From: Aurantiochytrium sp. KH105
Lineage: Eukaryota; Sar; Bigyra; Thraustochytrida; Thraustochytriidae
DNA: 64,000 nt
NCBI GenBank assembly: GCA_003116975.1
Contig: BGKB01000042.1
Coordinates: 124,001 to 188,000, forward strand
Reading direction: 5' to 3'
Part shown: piece after piece, positions 13,580 through 46,585 of the stretch
Layout of the letters: each line of letters begins with the position of its first letter
Numbering within the stretch: position 1 is the first letter of the stretch
Made by a program: the position numbers and the translations under genes
The notes under the pieces: generated by a model
What the model saw: the letters and a program-made list of their open reading frames with translations, nothing else
What the model was told of the DNA's origin: nothing
Database searches by the model: none

Positions 13580-16414
13580 TCAATCCTGCTGATCTGCATC
13601 CGTTCGATTTGCTTCATTGCAAGTTTTCGCCTCTGGCAACGTTATCTCAGAATGCTCGGAAGCATCGCGAGAAATGCAAGAAGCACTGTTCTTTGCGATT
13701 TCCTCCTTCTCTTGTTTCGCCTGTTCAGCTTTCGCCTGTTCCGCTTGCGCACTCTGAAGCGCATCCCGCACACCGGTGAGAAAAGAAGGCATCGAGTTGG
13801 TGTTACGATTCTTGTCAGTCGGCGCGCGCAGCTGAAAATGCGTGCCGGTTGGCGTCGACCCACTGGAACCAGATCGGCGCAGCTGCGGGCTTGAGACAGT
13901 CAACGTGTTCTCTCGCTTTAGCGTTCGCAGAGAGTTCTGCTTGTATTTGAGTGACATATTCTTGTAGTTTGTAAGCGACGAACGCTTCGACACGCCACGC
14001 TGCAGGACCCTGAGAGCTTCGCGGGTTCCTTCGTCAATCTTGACGAGCGACTGATCCGAGTTGGCCGTGGACGTCGAGAAACGTGCAGAGTTCTGTTTGG
14101 TGTCCCCGCCGTTCACGCGAGACATGATATTTTGTAGGTTCTCCACAATACGCTGCGTCACAAAGGCATGGACATCCTCATCGAGATGCTCGATAAAGGT
14201 CTCCCGGTCAAACTTGATCAGAGTGCTGTCTCCGCGCGACCGGCACGTTGCTGTTCGCTTTTGATTCACGAGCATGCCCATTTCGCCAAAGAAGTCGCCC
14301 TCCATTGCTACATAGACACACTTCCAGCCCTCTGGAAAGTTGTCCTGATTGGCCTCCGCGTCAAGAGGGGAGAAGATCTCCACTTCGCCACTGAGAACAA
14401 TGAAGCACGCATCACCCTCGTCGCCAGCCTTGATGATGACGTCGCCGTCTTGGAACTTTTCTCGCGTATAGCAACCGCTAAGAATAATCTGGTCCATAAG
14501 GATTTTATTCAGCTGGGCGTCCTCCTTGTTATCTTCTTCCTCGGAGATTTTCGTGAGATATCGCTGCAGACGGCGTCGAATAATCGTGAAGGGGGGACGT
14601 TGTTTTGGATTTTCGTGCCAGCAATCGGAGATGAGACTGCGAAGATCAGAGGGCAAGTCGGCGGGTAAGGGAAGGCGGTACTTTTCATGGGCAACTCGAT
14701 GCGGGAATTCCATCGCCTCCATCTGGCTCATGGTCTCGAAAGGGTTTAGCTGCGTGTGAATTTCCAAAAGGAGTAGAGCATATGAATACACATCCGCCTT
14801 GCGGTCGTACTTTTCAGCACGTATGACTTCAGGGGCCCTCCAGAAGGGCGTTCCGACCGGTGTCGAGCAGAATTCCTTGATTTGCTTGGAGGTTCCAAAG
14901 TCCGAGACCTTGCCCGTAAATGTGCTCGAGACAAGGATGTTATCGGTCTTGAGATCACGATGAATAAGACCTTGGCCATGCAGAAATGCCATTCCTTTGG
15001 CAATATCAATGGCCAGTTTTGCTTTTGGGTCTTCCCACGTGAGAAGCATGCGTCGGTCGCTCAAAACGGACCGCAAGGATCCCCGACTCATGAGCTCCAG
15101 CACCATGCCGACCATTTCTGACTCGCGCTCCCATGTGACCCCCATCAGTTGTACGATGTTTGGGTGTCGGAGGCCTTTGAGGATCTTCACCTCTGTAATG
15201 AATTGAATGCAGTTCTTCTTGTTCAGCATCGCTCCAGGAAGCATTTTGAAGGCTACAGGCGCCTCCAGATACATGGCCTCGAAGACCTCGCCCATCGCAC
15301 CTCGTCCAACAAAGTCGAGGACTTGGAGATTTTTCGGATCGATGCGAAGTCGTTGCATTGTAGCATTTCCTTCGAGCTGAGCAAAGAATTGGCGAGCGCT
15401 GTCTCCAGCAAATCGGTCATCACCGGTAAAGGACCTCTTTCGTGCTTGCGATGACAAGCTAGCGCCTTTGAGGGACGTGGACTTAAGCAGTCCAAGGTGC
15501 CATGCCATGACGAGTTTGCGGGCTTTAACGCTGGCTGGGGACGCGCCGACGAGCCAACGCCTGCGTTCCACGGCACCTCGGTGCACTGTGCTTGCCGCGA
15601 CGACGCACAGAAGGAAACTCGCGAGAACGCCATCGATGATTTCTCTCGAGGTCACCGAGGAGCCAGAGGTCTTTGCTGCAAGCGCAATGACCGCCGCGAG
15701 CTCTGCCTGGGCGCCAAGCGTTACGAAGAGTACGAGCCGCGATGATTTGGGGGCCAGTAAAACAATAAAGAGAGCGTGCATTACGGTGCCCATGCCTGCA
15801 GTACCGACGGCCTGCACGCGAGCGGCAGTCTGGCAGAGATAGAGCGGCTCACATGAAGAATCGTAGAGAGCCGTGAGAAATGGAAAGGCCCCGATGCACG
15901 TCATGGAGGCGACCAAGCCATCTTGAGCCGTGAGCGTCTTTTCACGGAGTGTGTCGACCGAGCGCACCGCGAACCACCTTACAAAGGCGACCGTCGTAAT
16001 CGCGCTCATCACAAAGACGGGAAGACCGCCAAATAAATAGACGCCACCAGTCTCTAATGACACCACGGCAGCCGCGGCCATGAGAAGAGCGAGGCCGATG
16101 ATGACAAGGTTTTCAACGCGAAGACGCATACTGAGCAATCTCGCATCCTCGGTCTCGCGCTTTGTTTTGATAAAGAACTTTTCCAAAGCATAGAGACGGA
16201 AAGAACCGAGCCATGATGAAACGCAGCGGTCAAGTACGTCTCGCATCTGGGACATTTGCTCGATCTCATTGGGTGCGACGCTGTTGGATTGAATTGTTGT
16301 CATTAGGGGGCCGCCACCGCCGCCGCCACCGCCACCGCCATGGCCGCCATCACCCGGGAAATGAGTGCTCGGAAATTCGCTACCAAAGTCGTTCCATGGT
16401 CGCACAGACGCCAT
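13580..16414 (-). CDS. membrane TKL-type protein kinase with C-terminal cyclic-nucleotide-binding domain
   Basis: 944 residues. After a Gly-rich N-terminus there are about six hydrophobic segments (roughly residues 103-119, 125-147, 167-184, 200-221, 226-247, 259-276), so the protein should sit in a membrane. A complete tyrosine-kinase-like Ser/Thr kinase domain follows: GRGAMGEVF (370-378), Lys390, Glu408, HRDLKTDN (Asp487, Asn492), DFG (Asp505), GTPFWRAPEV and a C-lobe ending near 620. About residues 655-770 form a cyclic-nucleotide-binding fold: FQDGDVIIKAGDEGDACFIVLSGEVEIF is split by sequence from FFGEMGMLVNQKRTATCRS, which has the FGE and R-T-A of a phosphate-binding cassette. The tail is charged, Ala/Lys/Glu-rich coiled coil. 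Unlike PKG, the sensor lies after the kinase. All catalytic residues are present. Nucleotide specificity is not known, though R-T-A leans to cGMP. Confidence 0.88.
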   Translation of the reverse strand: MASVRPWNDFGSEFPSTHFPGDGGHGGGGGGGGGGPLMTTIQSNSVAPNEIEQMSQMRDVLDRCVSSWLGSFRLYALEKFFIKTKRETEDARLLSMRLRVENLVIIGLALLMAAAAVVSLETGGVYLFGGLPVFVMSAITTVAFVRWFAVRSVDTLREKTLTAQDGLVASMTCIGAFPFLTALYDSSCEPLYLCQTAARVQAVGTAGMGTVMHALFIVLLAPKSSRLVLFVTLGAQAELAAVIALAAKTSGSSVTSREIIDGVLASFLLCVVAASTVHRGAVERRRWLVGASPASVKARKLVMAWHLGLLKSTSLKGASLSSQARKRSFTGDDRFAGDSARQFFAQLEGNATMQRLRIDPKNLQVLDFVGRGAMGEVFEAMYLEAPVAFKMLPGAMLNKKNCIQFITEVKILKGLRHPNIVQLMGVTWERESEMVGMVLELMSRGSLRSVLSDRRMLLTWEDPKAKLAIDIAKGMAFLHGQGLIHRDLKTDNILVSSTFTGKVSDFGTSKQIKEFCSTPVGTPFWRAPEVIRAEKYDRKADVYSYALLLLEIHTQLNPFETMSQMEAMEFPHRVAHEKYRLPLPADLPSDLRSLISDCWHENPKQRPPFTIIRRRLQRYLTKISEEEDNKEDAQLNKILMDQIILSGCYTREKFQDGDVIIKAGDEGDACFIVLSGEVEIFSPLDAEANQDNFPEGWKCVYVAMEGDFFGEMGMLVNQKRTATCRSRGDSTLIKFDRETFIEHLDEDVHAFVTQRIVENLQNIMSRVNGGDTKQNSARFSTSTANSDQSLVKIDEGTREALRVLQRGVSKRSSLTNYKNMSLKYKQNSLRTLKRENTLTVSSPQLRRSGSSGSTPTGTHFQLRAPTDKNRNTNSMPSFLTGVRDALQSAQAEQAKAEQAKQEKEEIAKNSASCISRDASEHSEITLPEAKTCNEANRTDADQQD

Positions 16415-27269: not shown

Positions 27270-30209
27270 ATGAAGAGCTACACCGGGTACTCGAAGGGGT
27301 TTGACGATGAGGAGGAAGATCCAGGTTTGCCGCCCAAGATGGCCAGCGCGCCAGCGACGTACGGCGCGAAGAAGAAGGCGACGCGGAAGAAGCCTGTTCA
27401 GCAGCAGGCGGCGAGCAAGATGTCCAAGGCGCCCGTGTTCAAGGCTCAGGTCATGAAGAAGATGGCGTACGACTCGGACGGGTCGAACGGATCCATCGAG
27501 GATGATGAGGATCACGACGACGTCGAAGATAACGAGGAAGGTAGCTTTGTTGCTGCCAAGTCCACCATGCAGGCCAAGTCGGCGGATTTGTTCCAAGCAC
27601 AGCGCACGAAGATGGCGCAAAAGGCCGCGCAACCGAGGCCCGATACGGAAGGTCTCATTGACTCACTGGTCTTTCGGCGGGCGTACCAGCAGGCTGTGGA
27701 GAATGGAGACCCGCAACCTTGGGGCTGGTCCAAGCTCATGATCATTGGCCAGGGCGCCGCGGGAAAAACCTCGACGGTACGATCGCTGCTTGGACTTGAT
27801 CCTGTCGAAACGTGGGAAAGCACCGTCGGTGTGGATCTCAAGGTCACCTCTGCGGACGACTGGAAGCAACGTGATCATGCCGAGACCGACTTCAACTTGA
27901 TGCTGCACAAAGCAGCTGCCCAAATCGTCAAAGAAGGCGAGCATCCTCGGCAAGCAGGCGCGAAAAGCAAGGGCCCCGCGCCTGAGCGCACGTCGCGACG
28001 CTTCTCCAAGACCGTTTTGGGCTTTTTCGGTCTCAGAAGATCCTCGGCCAAGTCTGCTAAAACCGGCGACGCTGCGCCTGCCAGCGAGATGGAGGAGGAG
28101 GTCGACCACGACGGCGCGGCGCAAAACGCTGCTGCCCCACCGGCTTCGCTTATGGAGCAGGAAGAGGTGGCGCGCGCTATCAATCTCGACTGGGCGCGCA
28201 AGCTCACGAACTCGGAGGACACGCCACTCCGCTTCGCCATCTGGGACTACGGTGGCCAAGACGTCTTTTATGCGCTGCACCACGTCTTCTTGACCAAATA
28301 TGGTGTTTACGTGCTTGTCTTCGACATGCGGCAAATCCTCGCCGACCAAGAGTCCGTCATTGAGTATCTGCGCTTTTGGCTGAACTCGGTCAAGCTGCAC
28401 GCCCCGAACGCGCCCATCGTCATGGTCGGCACCTACGCCGATGAAGTGACCACTGATGACGAGTACCAGCGCATCGAGGGCATTCTGCGCCGCGACGTCG
28501 GCGCCAAGCTTCTTGTGCAGGTTATCAAGGACTCGGAGGCGCGGCGCTCGTTCTTTCCCATGAACAACGCAAGCGCAAGCCCGACGCGCGGCGAGAAACT
28601 GCGCCAAATCATTGAGAACTGTGCTGCCGATCAGGACTACGTCAAGCAAAAGGTCTCGCTCCGGTGGATCAGAATTCTCACTGATCTCGTTGAAGACAGC
28701 GCGCAGCAGTACGTGTCGATGGCCCACGTGCGCAGCCTCGGCAGCTCGTATGGCGTCACGGGCGAGGAACTGAGCCACATGCTTCGGTTCTTCAACGAGA
28801 TTGGCGCGCTCGTGCATCTCGACGCGAACGAAACGCTCAGCAAGAACGTGGTCACGCAGCCACAATGGCTTCTCAACAAGCTCAGTCGTGTCATTGCCGA
28901 CGAGATGCACATTGAAAGCCTCTACTACGATCCCGAGCTGCAGCGCCTCGGTCTTGCCGAGGACTTTGAGCGCATGCGCAAGATGGGCGTCGCGAGCTAT
29001 GAGCTCCTCGACTTCCTCTGGGACGGCGACGAGGTCGATTTTCTAATCGAGTTCATGAACAGTGCCATGCTGCTCAGCCCGTGGCCCTTCAACGACAAGC
29101 GCGAGTATCTGGTGACGAGCCTCTTGCGCGACGATTCGGACACTCTTGCGGCGGAGCAAGGCGACGGCGCACAAGCAATCGACCCGAGCGAGTTTGAGGG
29201 CGGCGCCGCGTGCGCTCTGGACTTTTCAGAGTTCTACCTCCCCGATGGCGTCTTCCAGCGTCTTGTGCCGATCTGCGCAGAGTACTCTGCCCGAGACGAA
29301 GACTCGTCGCTGCCGCGGCTTTCGCGCCAGAGCGCCCAGATTGCCTTTGGATGGAACGAGTTCCTCCTCGAGGCAGATCACGGCCAAGACATCATTCGCA
29401 TTACCTTTAAGCCTGACGCTGAAGACGTCGGAGAAAACGTCAAGGTGATTGTCTCCATGTTTCGCGCCTTGAAAGACAACGTTATGCAAAATCTCAAGTG
29501 GAAGCTCGTCCTCTTTTCGCAGAAGAATCCTGCTCAAGGTGTCGACTACGAAGATCTCGTCGGCGCACGCGCGCGCAAGGCGAGCAAGGTGCGGGATACG
29601 CAGGGCCGAGCGGCAAAGGTGTCCGAGTTTGGCATCTTCTTCCAGAGCGAGGAAACTCTCGGCTCGCTTGTGAGCGACGAGTCGGGTGGAGAATCTTCGA
29701 CGAGCACCGCGCCTGCGGACCTCACGCAGGATGCCGCAGCGGCAACATCCGAGGGCTTTGACGTTTTCATCAGTCACAAGCAGAGTTCCGGTGGCGACCA
29801 GGTGGCCATACTTTACGAGAAGCTCCAGCAGCATGGTCTGCGCGTGTGGTTTGATGAGCGCATGCCCGTCATCACCAAGCCTGCCATGGAAGAAGGTGTC
29901 AAGCACTCGTCGGCCTTTTTGCTGTTTCTTTCCCGCGGTGTCTTTAGCTCTGGATACGTCAAGTTTGAGCTCCAGACCGCCCTCGAGGCTGGCAAGCCCA
30001 TCATTCTGGTCCACGAGAGCGACACGCAGCGCCTCGCCTATTCGGACTTTGGCGAGTACATTCAGACTGCGCCTGTCTTTGCGCAAGAGGCGCGCCTTTT
30101 TGAGCTCGTCGAGTCGATTCCGTTCCAGCGACGCTACTACCTCGAGAAGCCCTTTGTGGACGAGCTCTCAAAACGCATCAGAGCCGCGACCGCGGCACAC
30201 TCCCACTAG
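27270..30209 (+). CDS. Roco-family GTPase with C-terminal TIR domain (ROC-COR-TIR)
   Basis: 979 residues, single exon. A charged, disordered N-terminus (acidic run near 74-90) leads to a ROC GTPase: P-loop GQGAAGKTS (160-168), WDYGGQ (Asp326, Gly328-Gln330) and TYAD (388-391, the NKxD-equivalent position). About 110 residues rich in Lys/Ala/Glu are inserted between the P-loop region and WDYGGQ. A COR-like region follows to about 740 (for example VTQPQWLLNKLSRVIADEMH). Residues 830-960 form a TIR domain: FDVFISHKQSSGGDQVAILY, GLRVWFDERM, SAFLLFLSRGVFSSGYVKFE, with Glu900 at the position of the catalytic Glu of NAD-cleaving TIRs. No leucine-rich repeats are present. Likely a GTP-controlled signalling or immune-type sensor; ligand and output are inference. 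Confidence 0.9.
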   Translation: MKSYTGYSKGFDDEEEDPGLPPKMASAPATYGAKKKATRKKPVQQQAASKMSKAPVFKAQVMKKMAYDSDGSNGSIEDDEDHDDVEDNEEGSFVAAKSTMQAKSADLFQAQRTKMAQKAAQPRPDTEGLIDSLVFRRAYQQAVENGDPQPWGWSKLMIIGQGAAGKTSTVRSLLGLDPVETWESTVGVDLKVTSADDWKQRDHAETDFNLMLHKAAAQIVKEGEHPRQAGAKSKGPAPERTSRRFSKTVLGFFGLRRSSAKSAKTGDAAPASEMEEEVDHDGAAQNAAAPPASLMEQEEVARAINLDWARKLTNSEDTPLRFAIWDYGGQDVFYALHHVFLTKYGVYVLVFDMRQILADQESVIEYLRFWLNSVKLHAPNAPIVMVGTYADEVTTDDEYQRIEGILRRDVGAKLLVQVIKDSEARRSFFPMNNASASPTRGEKLRQIIENCAADQDYVKQKVSLRWIRILTDLVEDSAQQYVSMAHVRSLGSSYGVTGEELSHMLRFFNEIGALVHLDANETLSKNVVTQPQWLLNKLSRVIADEMHIESLYYDPELQRLGLAEDFERMRKMGVASYELLDFLWDGDEVDFLIEFMNSAMLLSPWPFNDKREYLVTSLLRDDSDTLAAEQGDGAQAIDPSEFEGGAACALDFSEFYLPDGVFQRLVPICAEYSARDEDSSLPRLSRQSAQIAFGWNEFLLEADHGQDIIRITFKPDAEDVGENVKVIVSMFRALKDNVMQNLKWKLVLFSQKNPAQGVDYEDLVGARARKASKVRDTQGRAAKVSEFGIFFQSEETLGSLVSDESGGESSTSTAPADLTQDAAAATSEGFDVFISHKQSSGGDQVAILYEKLQQHGLRVWFDERMPVITKPAMEEGVKHSSAFLLFLSRGVFSSGYVKFELQTALEAGKPIILVHESDTQRLAYSDFGEYIQTAPVFAQEARLFELVESIPFQRRYYLEKPFVDELSKRIRAATAAHSH

Positions 30210-31232: not shown

Positions 31233-32083
31233 AGTTTTGGTTTGTTTGTCTAAATTCTTTGCCAGAAACACGCGAGCGCACGTGAAGTATCAGCAAGCGT
31301 CCTCGTCCTCGTCCTCGTCGCGTCCTCTTTGCCCGCCTCGCTTCGCCTCGCCTCGCCTCGCCTCGCCTATGGAGAGCTAGCTGCACAGCCTGCACTGCCT
31401 GCCTGCCTGCCTGTCCTAGAGCGAGGTCAGATTGATCTCACGCGCTCGCCCTGACGCTCCTCTCCACGCTCTTCTTCGCGCTGCGCTGCACCCAGCTCTA
31501 CTCGCGCACTGCTGCGCTTCGCAGCGACGCAGGCAGCCGGGAGCGGCGTGGGCGGTGCGTCCGTCGGCCCCAGGCGCGGCGGCGAAGCGGACTTGGCCTT
31601 CCGCGCGTCGCCCTCCACGCCCTTGAGGCCCGCGAGGGTCAGGCCTGACGCCCGCGGAGGACGCCCCGTCAGGCCTGACACTCGCGGAGGGACCCCCCCC
31701 CCCCTCTTTCTCCCCCTCTCCCGCCCCTCTTTGCGGGCGCCTTCGAAGCTGCAGCTGCAGACTGCAGACTGCAAGCACGCACGCAAACGCTCGCGCGCAA
31801 GAAGTTGCGTCGCCGCGCAGGCCGCGTTGTGTCGCCTACGACGCCGGGCCACGTGGCCGGCTGCAGTTCTCCGTGTCCACGTGGACCCGAGCGCCCCCTT
31901 GTTGGGGCAGGAAAAGTCGCGTGGCCGAGACTTGAGACTTGGGAGGCGTCATTTACAGCTAGCTCATAAGTTACAGTTAGGTTAGGCCAAGGCTTGGAGT
32001 GAGCACGATCTTTTTTCGATGGTGTGGCGGCGGCGGGCAAAAGCGAAAGCGAGAGCGAAAGCAAAAGCGCATCGGGAGGGAGC
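31233..32083. promoter_or_regulatory. divergent promoter region with a duplicated 12-base palindrome
   Basis: 850 bases between the ChaC-like gene (-) and the ZNRD2-repeat gene (+). Holds CGCCT repeats (31338-31368), CTGC repeats, two perfect palindromes GTCAGGCCTGAC at 31638-31649 and 31668-31679, and a C12 run at 31693-31704. Confidence 0.6.
31638..31679. promoter_or_regulatory. two copies of palindrome GTCAGGCCTGAC, 30 bases apart
   Basis: Both copies are perfect 12-base palindromes, and CGCGGAGG follows each at a similar distance. The 30-base centre-to-centre spacing is close to three helical turns, which would put two bound dimers on one face. Candidate transcription-factor sites; the factor is unknown. 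Confidence 0.5.
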
Positions 32084-33790
32084 ATGCAGCCGGCACGCGG
32101 GCCGACGAGCGAGGAGGTGGCGCAGCGGCGCGCGGAGAGCCACGGCGTGCAGCTGCTGCCGCTGGCCGAGGCGCAGCGGGAGACGAACGAGAAGCTGCTG
32201 GGCGGATGGGTCATGCTCAACGAGACGTGCCCGATCTCGAACTATCCCCTGCTCAAGGACCCGCGCTCGGGCAAGGTGTGGTCTGTGCGCTGCCAGATGG
32301 AGGTCAGCGCCGAGGCGCCGTCCAAGCAGCGCGCGCCGAGCAGCAGCGGCTGCAGCAGCAGCGGTAGCGAGGGCGAGAATGCGGGAATGAGCTCGGACAA
32401 TGTACCTTCGAACAAGGATTTCAGGGGCAAGGGACTCTTGGGCGGAGGCCAGGCCCAGAATGGGGAAACCTTTGCAGACTCGACGCTACAGACGGAGCGC
32501 ATCGCGGAGCGGCTCGTGCAAGGCTGGACTCTAACGAGCGAGATTTGCCCCATCTCGAATCGTTGTCCCGTGCTTATCGATCCCGCGTCCAAGCGCAAGT
32601 GGTCTCCCGCCACAGGACGCTACCTTGACGAGGCCGCCTCACCAGCGAAGAGCATCTCCGCGTCTGCTGACTCTGCAGCGCCAGCTACCGCTGTTGCTGC
32701 TAGCGCAACAGCTGGTGCTGGTGCTGTTGCGGCTTTAAGTGGAACACCTGCATCGGCATCCTCGCAAGCGGCCCCTTCCAAAGGGAACGCGAAACCGGAG
32801 ATCCCTCCCATGGACGTCATGACCAAGAGAATTAATGAGCGGCTTCTTAAACGCTGGACTATGCTTGCGGACGAATGTCCCGTGACTTTCGCGTGTCCGC
32901 TTCTGCAGGATCCTGAAACGAAACGCAAGTATTCGCCAGCTCTGGATGCCTTTGTGGACGAAGACCCAACGCCACAGGCGCAAGAGACACCCGAAGTCAA
33001 AGCTGAGACCACGACCACGACCACGACCACGACAACAACTATGCGCGCAAGCGAACTGAATCCTCTGTTTGGTGGGGACGATGACGACGAGGATTCGTCT
33101 CTTCAAGCGAAGCGGCTCTCGCAGCGACTCGTTCAAGGGTGGGTTATGCTCGATGAGGAATGCCCCATCACAGGCAAGTGTCCGCTCATGGAAGAACCCA
33201 ACACCGGTCGCAAATACTCTGCAGCACTTGACAAATTCATCGACGAGGTTGAAGCCCAGGAGGAGAGCAACGCGCAAGAAACTTCTGCGCCAAAGCCTTC
33301 CGAATCAGGATCTTCATCTAGCGCGCCAGGCGTCGATGACGATGACTCAGTGTCAAACATGGCTAAATTTCACATGGGAAGCTGGACCGAAGGCGCAATG
33401 TCTGAACTCGACGACGACTTGGATGGCTTGGACGATGTTAACTACAGCGCGCCGTCGGTTCCGCAAAAGCGAAAGGCAGGCGGCGCCACACCACGTGTCC
33501 GCTTCAGCGAGGACCTTGTGCAGACCCACGAGCCAGAAGAATTCGATGAGGAGGACAATTTGTCGACCAAAAGCGTGGAGTCAGGCGTGTCCTTGAACGG
33601 CGAGACAAAGGACGAGCTTCGGCGCGCAGAAGCAGTGGTGCGCTCGAAGCTACGTGAGGCCCGGGATGCGCTCGCTCGGATTGAAATCACCCCCAACGCT
33701 AGCTTTACAACGATGCAAACGTGTGATCACCTCGTGCGCCTTGTTGGCACCTGTGTCTCTACGCTGCGAGATGTCTCGCAGGATAAATAA
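32084..33790 (+). CDS. protein with four ZNRD2/SSSCA1-like repeats
   Basis: 568 residues from the ATG at 32084. Four copies of a roughly 40-residue unit occur at about residues 36-75, 139-180, 252-292 and 344-386, each reading like LLxGWxMLxExCPIxxxxPLLxDPxxGRKYS. This resembles the zinc-binding module of the Sjogren/scleroderma autoantigen 1 (ZNRD2) family, but the second Cys of the usual CPxC and most later Cys are missing, so metal binding is doubtful. Linkers are Ala/Ser/Thr-rich and low complexity. A C-terminal helix pair (about 500-568) contains LRRAEAVVRSKLREARDALA. Cytosolic or nuclear location is a guess. The repeat count is directly visible; the function is not known. Confidence 0.75.
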   Translation: MQPARGPTSEEVAQRRAESHGVQLLPLAEAQRETNEKLLGGWVMLNETCPISNYPLLKDPRSGKVWSVRCQMEVSAEAPSKQRAPSSSGCSSSGSEGENAGMSSDNVPSNKDFRGKGLLGGGQAQNGETFADSTLQTERIAERLVQGWTLTSEICPISNRCPVLIDPASKRKWSPATGRYLDEAASPAKSISASADSAAPATAVAASATAGAGAVAALSGTPASASSQAAPSKGNAKPEIPPMDVMTKRINERLLKRWTMLADECPVTFACPLLQDPETKRKYSPALDAFVDEDPTPQAQETPEVKAETTTTTTTTTTTMRASELNPLFGGDDDDEDSSLQAKRLSQRLVQGWVMLDEECPITGKCPLMEEPNTGRKYSAALDKFIDEVEAQEESNAQETSAPKPSESGSSSSAPGVDDDDSVSNMAKFHMGSWTEGAMSELDDDLDGLDDVNYSAPSVPQKRKAGGATPRVRFSEDLVQTHEPEEFDEEDNLSTKSVESGVSLNGETKDELRRAEAVVRSKLREARDALARIEITPNASFTTMQTCDHLVRLVGTCVSTLRDVSQDK

Positions 33791-44461: not shown

Positions 44462-46585
44462 ATGCTCGATTTGGAGGATGAACAAGATGCCTTCGTGCAA
44501 AATGTCACTTTTGCACAAATCAAGAAATGGAAAAATAATCCCTCGGATCATCATCTCATCACAAAAGCGTACGATCAACTGGAGTCGCTTCTCAGGAGGA
44601 GCGACGGGGACACATCATGGATCCCAGATCATTTAGCCGATTACCTGGATGCTGAGGCGGGACGAATAAAGGAGCGCGAAGAACAAGAAGCTGCTGAAGC
44701 TAGACGCCGCGAAGAAGTGCGCGGCTTGAAGCGCAAATTCGAGACGCGCGAGATGGACTTCAAGAAGGAATTGGATGATGCCCTTGCGGGAAATCAGGCG
44801 CTTGCTCAAGAAAACGCGGAACTTCGAGCGAGACAGGAGGCGGTGGTATCTGTATGGAGCAACCTTATGGCACACGACCCTCCGTTTATCATAAATGCGA
44901 GCAGTACAAGCACTGCGAGCATTCCACATTTCTACAGCCCCGACATCGCTGTTCCATGGGATTTTGCCAGTTTCAATGAATGTGCATATTCTTCCAGCGA
45001 TCTGCAAGATTTTGTCGGCAAGCTTGTTGCCTTTCAAGAAAAACGTAGTGCTTTCCCTGAGTCAATTGTGTACCTTCGCGATTACGATCCAGGTTCTTCT
45101 GAGCAATGCGTCGTCAACATCATGAAGAAGTTGTACGAAGCTGTGAAGCATATCTTGAAAACAACCAACGAACCGAACCGCGACCAACTCAGTTATAAGA
45201 GCGGTCGTCTCTATGGTGTCTTTGATTTCGTCTCAAGAACACTACGCCAACCGGACGGCATAATTAACTTGGAGTCGTTCCCCGTTTGCATGATCGAATA
45301 CAAAACAGACAAGACCTTAAGCAAAACCACGCTCGAAGAATACGATAAAAGTGACATGAAACCGTTTGAGGAAAGCAGTGGCCCCCGAACAAAAAAGTAC
45401 GAATCCGTGAAACATCCTGTGACCCAAGTGTGCAGCTACATGATGCTGACTGGATGCCGCTATGGCATCTTATCGAATTGGGAGTCCACCTACTTTTTGA
45501 AACTCGATATCGACGAAAGCGGCCAGACGACGCTGCACCATTCCGAGAGATTTGCGCCATGGACAGCTACCATGGCGCAACGCGCGAACGTACCAGGCGC
45601 GGGACCTGGCAATATTACCATGGGCAATATCTTTGCAGAAGCGCCAGTTTCGCTCCTGCAAGCGATGACCGTATTCGTCCATCTTGTGATGAAGGACGAG
45701 ACCTTGATCCCGTCCGGACTTGACTCGGATGCCTACAATAAGGCGATCCGGAACAGGATCAAACGCAGCAAAGATCAATTTCCCGGCATTGGTCCCAACA
45801 TGAGCAGGTTTGTATCCAACATCGCATCCTCAACTCAGGCACAAACGACATTCCGGCAGGCAGGCAGCGGCGATGATAATTCCGAAAGGGACGATTTGCT
45901 GGCTGTGTTGACCGCCTGTACATCCATAGGAAGCGTAGTCCCACTTCATGGTGCATACGGCGTTGGCTTTTCGGACAGCACTCTCGAAATCGCAGGTATA
46001 ACTTTCAACGACTGCTTCGCCAAGGCGTCACTCTATCTAAACGACGAGACTTCGTATGACACCGGCTACAATCTCAATAACGAGCAGGCCACCGAATTTA
46101 TGGGCATGTTAGTGGAGGAAGCCCGTCTCTACGATGGTGCAGCTCGCGCACTTCAAGGCAGCGTGCTCCCTGTTGTCCATTACAGTGGAGAGTTCCCCAT
46201 TGGCGGGGGCTTTTACTTCATGATTGTGATGTCCAATACTGGACACTCTCTTAGATCGGAAGTCGGTCAGCAAACGGCGAGGTCAGTCGGGCTCAATGCT
46301 GTGCACTCTCGAGTCCACGCACTTCTGGACAAGCTGCACGGATCTGGCATCACTCATGGCGACATGGGACTACGCAATGTTACTATCCAAGAAAACGGAA
46401 CGGTAAGACTTGTTGATCTTGGAATGGCGAGTCTTGACTTGCGTCACTGCCGCCAGGATTATGAGTCTTTTGATGCCGAGTGGACTCGAGCTTTCGGCCG
46501 CATCGTCGTCGGGAAGTCCATGCTCAGGCGCTTCTCTCCAACACAATTTCTCAAGTCCTTGCGCAATGGTTCTGACCAATTGTAA
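44462..46585 (+). CDS. PD-(D/E)XK nuclease fused to a protein-kinase-like domain (CR-effector/transposon-type)
   Basis: 707 residues, single exon. An N-terminal helical region has a coiled coil (about 65-130). Residues about 180-330 carry a restriction-endonuclease-like core: Asp255 in YGVFDFVSRT and Glu279-x-Lys281 in MIEYKTDKT, spaced as in PD-(D/E)XK enzymes. The C-terminal ~230 residues look like a protein kinase: FAKASLY (candidate beta-3 Lys), VEEARLYDGAARALQGSVLP (candidate helix-C Glu), GITHGDMGLRNVTI (catalytic Asp634, Asn639) and RLVDLGMA (Asp652 as DFG Asp). This nuclease-kinase pairing is known in the Crinkler/CR effectors and related transposon-derived eukaryotic proteins. The gene is less GC-rich than its neighbours, which with nearby broken genes suggests an accessory or mobile origin. 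Biological target unknown. Confidence 0.75.
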   Translation: MLDLEDEQDAFVQNVTFAQIKKWKNNPSDHHLITKAYDQLESLLRRSDGDTSWIPDHLADYLDAEAGRIKEREEQEAAEARRREEVRGLKRKFETREMDFKKELDDALAGNQALAQENAELRARQEAVVSVWSNLMAHDPPFIINASSTSTASIPHFYSPDIAVPWDFASFNECAYSSSDLQDFVGKLVAFQEKRSAFPESIVYLRDYDPGSSEQCVVNIMKKLYEAVKHILKTTNEPNRDQLSYKSGRLYGVFDFVSRTLRQPDGIINLESFPVCMIEYKTDKTLSKTTLEEYDKSDMKPFEESSGPRTKKYESVKHPVTQVCSYMMLTGCRYGILSNWESTYFLKLDIDESGQTTLHHSERFAPWTATMAQRANVPGAGPGNITMGNIFAEAPVSLLQAMTVFVHLVMKDETLIPSGLDSDAYNKAIRNRIKRSKDQFPGIGPNMSRFVSNIASSTQAQTTFRQAGSGDDNSERDDLLAVLTACTSIGSVVPLHGAYGVGFSDSTLEIAGITFNDCFAKASLYLNDETSYDTGYNLNNEQATEFMGMLVEEARLYDGAARALQGSVLPVVHYSGEFPIGGGFYFMIVMSNTGHSLRSEVGQQTARSVGLNAVHSRVHALLDKLHGSGITHGDMGLRNVTIQENGTVRLVDLGMASLDLRHCRQDYESFDAEWTRAFGRIVVGKSMLRRFSPTQFLKSLRNGSDQL

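Follow-up and report, generated by a model that had tools for sequence, protein, structure and literature searches.

Bacterial LRR-AP-GTPase(Roc)-COR proteins, in which LRR stands for leucine-rich repeat, carry C-terminal TIR, caspase or other domains and act as counter-invader systems (Kaur et al. 2021, PMC8195603). Brown-algal LRR-ROCOs are proposed immune receptors, diversified by exon shuffling. The same source mentions a TPR-ROCO-TIR protein in the red alga Chondrus, gives four or fewer ROCOs for unicellular SAR (stramenopile, alveolate and Rhizaria) relatives, and links large ROCO sets to multicellularity (PMC11378527). In the NWD genes of the fungus Podospora, diversifying selection acts on two pairs of codons at the top of the WD40 propeller, 7 and 9 around the conserved codon 8, and 25 and 27 around the conserved codon 26 (PMC1805685). 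Here we describe a Roc-COR-TIR gene from the thraustochytrid Aurantiochytrium sp. KH105. It lies in a 64,000-nucleotide stretch of contig BGKB01000042.1 (positions 124,001 to 188,000, forward strand; the window). Its product is probably a Roco-switched, SARM1-like TIR effector within a repertoire resembling that of nucleotide-binding leucine-rich repeat (NLR) receptors.

The Roc-COR-TIR protein and its lineage

The gene and its parts are as follows.

27270..30209, plus strand: Roc-COR-TIR gene, 979 amino acids, ATG start, single uninterrupted frame
27270..27659, plus strand: N-terminal region, residues 1-130, Lys/Ala-rich and then acidic, no Pfam domain and no WD40
27717..28469, plus strand: Roc GTPase domain, about residues 150-400 (approximate limits), from Pfam, PDB search and structure match
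27747..27773, plus strand: P-loop motif GQGAAGKTS, residues 160-168
27942..28136, plus strand: low-confidence 65-residue Roc insert after switch I, residues 225-289, model confidence (pLDDT) below 50
28242..28259, plus strand: motif WDYGGQ (G3/switch II), residues 325-330
28431..28442, plus strand: motif TYAD (G4), residues 388-391
28662..29126, plus strand: COR-A, residues 465-619, from Pfam
29127..29651, plus strand: COR-B-like part, about residues 620-794, from alignment to a COR structure
29757..30206, plus strand: SARM1-like TIR domain, residues 830-979, from Pfam, fold match and alignments
29955..29957, plus strand: Tyr896, at the place of the SARM1 and AbTir Trp, from alignment
29967..29969, plus strand: Glu900 (GAG, in YVKFEL), candidate catalytic glutamate, from its alignment column

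A sequence-only reading had proposed a Roc-COR GTPase with these three GTPase motifs, a C-terminal TIR domain and no LRRs, and each of these points was borne out. That reading had missed the Roc insert, the domain-free stretch of 130 residues at the N-terminus and the family outside the window. Pfam scored Roc at 66.1 bits (cut-off 27; 4.4e-18), COR-A at 47.6 (cut-off 35.3), TIR_2 at 48.5 (cut-off 28) and Ras at 40.2 (cut-off 21.6), and its scan of the protein contained no LRR. A sequence search of the PDB matched the LRRK2 Roc (1.3e-12), the C. tepidum Roco (3dpu; 4.6e-12) and AbTIR (5e-4). The P-loop, switch II and G4 all lie in Roc, and both COR halves follow directly; COR-A and the COR-B-like part (model residues 333-664) align to the C. 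tepidum COR structure 3dpt. The structure model leaves out residues 1-130, whose composition suggests disorder. NACHT and NB-ARC were not among the nucleotide-binding matches in Pfam at E <= 1, which were Roc, Ras, Gtr1_RagA and a weak AAA_22 (E 0.069). PADLOC and NCBIfam gave weak TIR or GTPase matches only.

A chance frame or a misassembly is very unlikely, because the gene is found twice more. Hondaea, a thraustochytrid stramenopile, has a protein of equal length (H. fermentalgiana P0001, 979 amino acids) with 99.4% identity in a protein search. P0001 is named 'Leucine-rich repeat serine/threonine-protein kinase 2' in the database; despite that name, the Pfam scan of the window protein contains neither LRR nor kinase. 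Within the KH105 assembly (76.0 Mb, 367 contigs), a second copy, open over its full length, lies on contig C66. The stretches share 95.6% identity across 4,565 bp, and 93.3% across another 1,259 bp. Since this likeness extends into the flanks, we read the copies as two haplotypes. Between these alleles the coding sequence has 44 synonymous and 18 non-synonymous differences, with synonymous divergence (pS) at 0.066 and non-synonymous divergence (pN) at 0.008. Roc, insert included, has 13 synonymous differences and 1 non-synonymous. The low pN relative to pS points to purifying selection on the protein.

The gene belongs to a separate, conserved lineage without a recognised sensor, because of its place in the tree and because no WD40 was found in it or in the 2.5 kb upstream. 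The protein shares 49% identity over 97% with P0002 in a protein search. In a FastTree phylogeny of 33 Roc-COR(-TIR) proteins it groups with P0002 (support 1.0) and P0004 (0.943), separate from a WD40 clade (support 1.0). Two relatives differ in architecture. P0004 has additional TIR-like sequence ahead of Roc; P0029 combines Roc-COR, EF-hands, a caspase-like domain and WD40 with no TIR listed, and its effector may have been swapped.

The gene might instead be a housekeeping Roco for cytoskeleton, growth or development, with no role in defence and with recognition left to the WD40 paralogues described below. Same-lineage relatives in other sources (P0002, P0004), the low pN/pS between alleles and the lack of a sensor domain would all fit such a role. 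However, the complete switch-TIR module, Glu included, is common to this gene and the hypervariable family, and we consider a housekeeping role rather unlikely.

The TIR domain and Glu900

The model of the window protein has a TIR fold, and NADase TIRs are what it matches best, in structure as well as in sequence. The sequence-only reading had also singled out Glu900 as a candidate NADase glutamate. All five HMMER alignments to AbTir, SARM1 and TIR-1 place Glu900 in the catalytic-Glu column of SARM1 and AbTir, in line with that proposal. The check on whether Glu900 sits away from the NAD pocket relied on the sequence alignments and the fold match. Every one of the 23 aligned rows of alignment A1 has Glu in this column (1 gap; window protein and its allele included). 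In alignment A3 it is Glu in 24 of 25 aligned rows (1 Gln, 5 gaps), or 23 of 24 without the TIR-less P0029.

TIR domains need not be enzymes; MyD88, for example, works as an adaptor, bringing in further TIR proteins. In the same way, the window protein could be a GTP-regulated Roc-COR-TIR scaffold that recruits TIR proteins in ordinary signalling. This seems somewhat improbable, as the closest matches of the domain are to NADase TIRs and Glu900 is almost invariant, for which an adaptor would have no need.

WD40 paralogues with hypervariable propeller sites

The window gene has a large family in the assembly (counts include both haplotypes). COR-A has 124 matches (124 of 124 candidates scored; 116 above cut-off) and TIR_2 at least 150 (150 scored of 258 candidates). 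For 91 of the 124 COR-A matches, a scored TIR match lies within 2.5 kb downstream on the same strand, at a median spacing of 1,065 bp. NB-ARC has 2 matches and NACHT 17, of which 14 are paired by like score and frame. When the window protein is the query, the best 47 of 244 candidates comprise the protein itself, its allele and 45 paralogues, the last at 41-45% identity.

All 45 of these best-scoring paralogues have WD40 homology before Roc, mostly full length (split over two frames in L025; partial in L028, L040, L049 and L059). Fifteen further COR loci were probed, and WD40 homology was found in 14 (several partial), not in L066. With a WD40 paralogue as query, the best 42 of 629 candidates all span at least residues 129-1099 of 1103, and 39 of the 42 scored matches have no internal stop. 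Roc was matched in all 24 family members scanned; NACHT is not among the 25 families listed of 46. Among the matches listed (120 of 151), every named protein combining WD40, Roc, COR-A and TIR_2 is from Hondaea. Two short patterns scanned against prokaryotes gave one 19-residue match, on a Flavobacteriales contig, and against viruses none; scans this narrow do not show absence. Another kind of Roc-COR(-TIR) gene, which has no WD40, occurs at L011:158-2179 and L016:6242-8830, in each case upstream of a WD40 member and in the same direction. In L011 its frame stops before the TIR, and a TIR_2 match follows in a different frame (C36:346818).

Only four near-identical pairs were seen among 45 full-length WD40 regions (L009-L068; an incomplete sample), although 14 of the 17 NACHT matches are paired; for many WD40 members, a counterpart in the other haplotype may be missing. 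We take these pairs for alleles; flanks were compared, and found alike, for L011/L016 only. One region from each pair was removed, leaving 41. In this set, 34 of 279 WD40 columns have an entropy of at least 2 bits. They form a mask of xVx and xDx, or equivalent places, across the seven blades. All 34 fall within 3 residues of 14 blade centres, two to a blade, zones that make up 98 of the 279 columns. At the variable sites Asn, Tyr, Arg, Gly and Ser are most frequent, and Trp makes up 6%. Paired sites of the HNWD type are a property of the WD40 paralogues and not of the window gene. A spacing of 16 separates the pair centres (18 in Podospora), the repeat being about 40 residues long.

Variable-site pN exceeds framework pN in 820 of 820 pairs of the 41 regions and variable-site pS in 783. 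Because the tested columns were selected by entropy and the blade centres placed by eye on the alignment, the high pN and a value of 4e-18 do not count as independent tests. That circularity does not touch the low framework pS or the likeness in form to the Podospora sites. Among 17 paralogues, mean pS rises along the gene, from 0.076 in the WD40 framework through 0.284 in Roc and 0.611 in COR to 0.656 in the TIR. Variable WD40 codons have a pS of 0.298 and a pN of 0.587; pN/pS is 0.33 in COR and 0.25 in the TIR. Columns with an entropy of at least 1.8 bits number 6 in Roc, 58 in COR, 19 in the TIR and 29 in WD40. Codon constraint was rejected as the cause of the low framework divergence, framework pS being at least 0.2 in 117 of 820 pairs.

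In 34 of 820 pairs framework pS is less than 0.02, below the 0.066 between the window gene's alleles, yet the two members differ at an average of 76-79% of their variable residues (minimum 62%). A few pairs with framework pS of 0.02-0.10 differ at just 9-12%. The four near-identical pairs differ at 0/33, 0/34, 0/34 and 2/34 variable residues, with framework pS of 0.042-0.079. In a comparison with published Hondaea proteins, nine matches reach 93% identity or more and involve five of those proteins; these matches, picked for likeness, differ at 0-3 variable sites. L018 and P0030 differ at 3/28 variable and 2/217 framework sites. L022 and P0010 (89% identical overall), which may or may not be one locus, differ at 26/30 variable and 23/246 framework sites. 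Since alleles and close Hondaea matches keep their variable residues while near-identical frameworks at different loci do not, specificities look stable per locus, with frameworks exchanged or homogenised between loci.

Two sources of the variation are not favoured. Uniform hypermutation, or an adenine-only diversity-generating retroelement, fits poorly because most of the genome's third-base bias is kept (82% C+G at variable codons against a framework value of 90%), variation affects each of the three codon positions, and the four presumed allele pairs keep their variable residues. Whole-blade exchange is disfavoured by the 15 to 17 distinct blade strings out of 17. Short-tract exchange is possible, because codon sharing has a mean r of 0.075 within 3 residues against 0.017-0.037 further apart (about 0 after shuffling), and some half-blade codon sets recur among members more often than in shuffles. 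Synonymous diversity near variable codons is slightly higher, not significantly (p 0.11; p 0.06). We think it unlikely that a dedicated or templated process rewrites the roughly 34 WD40 codons in an otherwise uniform propeller, with the window gene as common sensor-less TIR helper or executor; this would be receptor diversification convergent with that of the fungal HNWD genes.

The WD40 family might recognise conspecific non-self, like fungal het genes, and not pathogens. Its variable sites match the form of the Podospora allorecognition genes. Allorecognition loci are expected to be polymorphic, whereas the four allele pairs keep their variable residues, and we regard this role as improbable.

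Proposed working and comparison with known systems

Drawing on general knowledge of Roco proteins and TIR NADases, we propose that the Roc-COR module gates the SARM1-like TIR domain. A trigger would alter the nucleotide state of Roc (GTP loading), and the COR-mediated dimer would rearrange. This would bring TIR domains together in an oligomer, where Glu900 would serve cleavage of NAD+ or a related nucleotide. Cleavage would start cell death or an alarm signal, in an immune or self/non-self response. The WD40 paralogues would be triggered by a ligand bound at the top face of the propeller. The window protein could be triggered by a sensor paralogue or through modification of its N-terminus; most likely this member would either respond to its trigger directly, as an executor, or serve the sensors as a common partner. 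The NLR-like logic suggested from sequence is better supported for the family, with its variable WD40 sensors, than for the window protein.

Several observations weigh against the effector reading. The G4 motif is TYAD, not NKxD, and Pfam and a WD40 search recognised no repeat sensor in the window protein. P0018 carries Gln at the position of Glu900, so not every family member need be an NADase. In SARM1 and AbTir, the aromatic Trp four residues before the catalytic Glu has a role. That place, which we take to be SARM1 Trp638 and AbTir Trp204, is occupied by Tyr896 in the window protein. P0002 has Ser there, P0004 and 15 of 19 rows of alignment A4 have Ala, and further relatives have other residues. 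Because of these substitutions, NADase activity of the window TIR is plausible, not established.

Elsewhere in the window are a 707-amino-acid open reading frame (44462-46585, plus strand) whose matches to HSDR_N_2 and protein kinase are weak and fall short of the cut-off; one of 588 amino acids (32024-33790, plus strand), four stretches of which match the Auto_anti-p27 family; and one of 944 (13580-16414, minus strand) with a protein kinase domain and then a cyclic-nucleotide-binding domain.

The window TIR shares its fold and catalytic-Glu column with the NADases SARM1, TIR-1 and AbTir. Unlike SARM1 and AbTir, it has Tyr at the Trp place and is joined to Roc-COR; the SARM1 TIR is joined to ARM-SAM. 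The Roc-COR architecture is that of LRRK2, LRRK1 and the C. tepidum and M. barkeri Rocos, from which the window protein differs in the TIR after COR, the low-confidence Roc insert, and the lack of any kinase or LRR found.

The family shares with Podospora anserina HNWD/NWD genes the paired variable sites flanking conserved WD40 residues and a multigene organisation with inter-locus exchange (PMC1805685, PMC2873952). The fungal switch is NACHT; here it is Roc-COR. WD40 repeats are C-terminal in the fungal proteins and N-terminal in the paralogues. Fungal repeats evolve in concert within genes, whereas here the blades keep different frameworks.

The Roc-COR-TIR combination is not new, because bacterial, Chondrus and Aplysia examples are published. 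The bacterial systems have the same switch, the same C-terminal effector position (TIR, caspase and others) and several paralogues per genome; they differ in their LRR N-terminus, in contrast to the WD40 of the paralogues and the lack of any repeat sensor in the window gene, and the present family is eukaryotic with many more members (PMC8195603). Aplysia TIR-ROCOs also place TIR and Roc-COR on a single chain, in animal proteins with LRR, Death-like, EF-hand or Mbt domains (PMC9334734). Brown-algal ROCOs are likewise stramenopile candidate immune receptors, of LRR-ROCO type, and a ROCO-TIR architecture occurs in the red alga. A unicellular thraustochytrid with 124 COR-A matches over both haplotypes, TIRs and a hypervariable propeller would contradict the figure of four or fewer ROCOs given for unicellular relatives (PMC11378527). 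In the literature searched, no paper combined Hondaea or thraustochytrids with TIR domains, and no hypervariable WD40-Roc-COR-TIR set of such size in a unicellular stramenopile came up. The family would offer a culturable system for studying NLR-like recognition in which a GTPase switch takes the place of NACHT or NB-ARC, with the window gene as a handy entry point (one gene, two alleles, a complete switch-TIR module). By analogy, the family resembles the immune-receptor sets of plants and fungi. If our reading is right, a single-celled stramenopile has an NLR-like repertoire on a GTPase switch.
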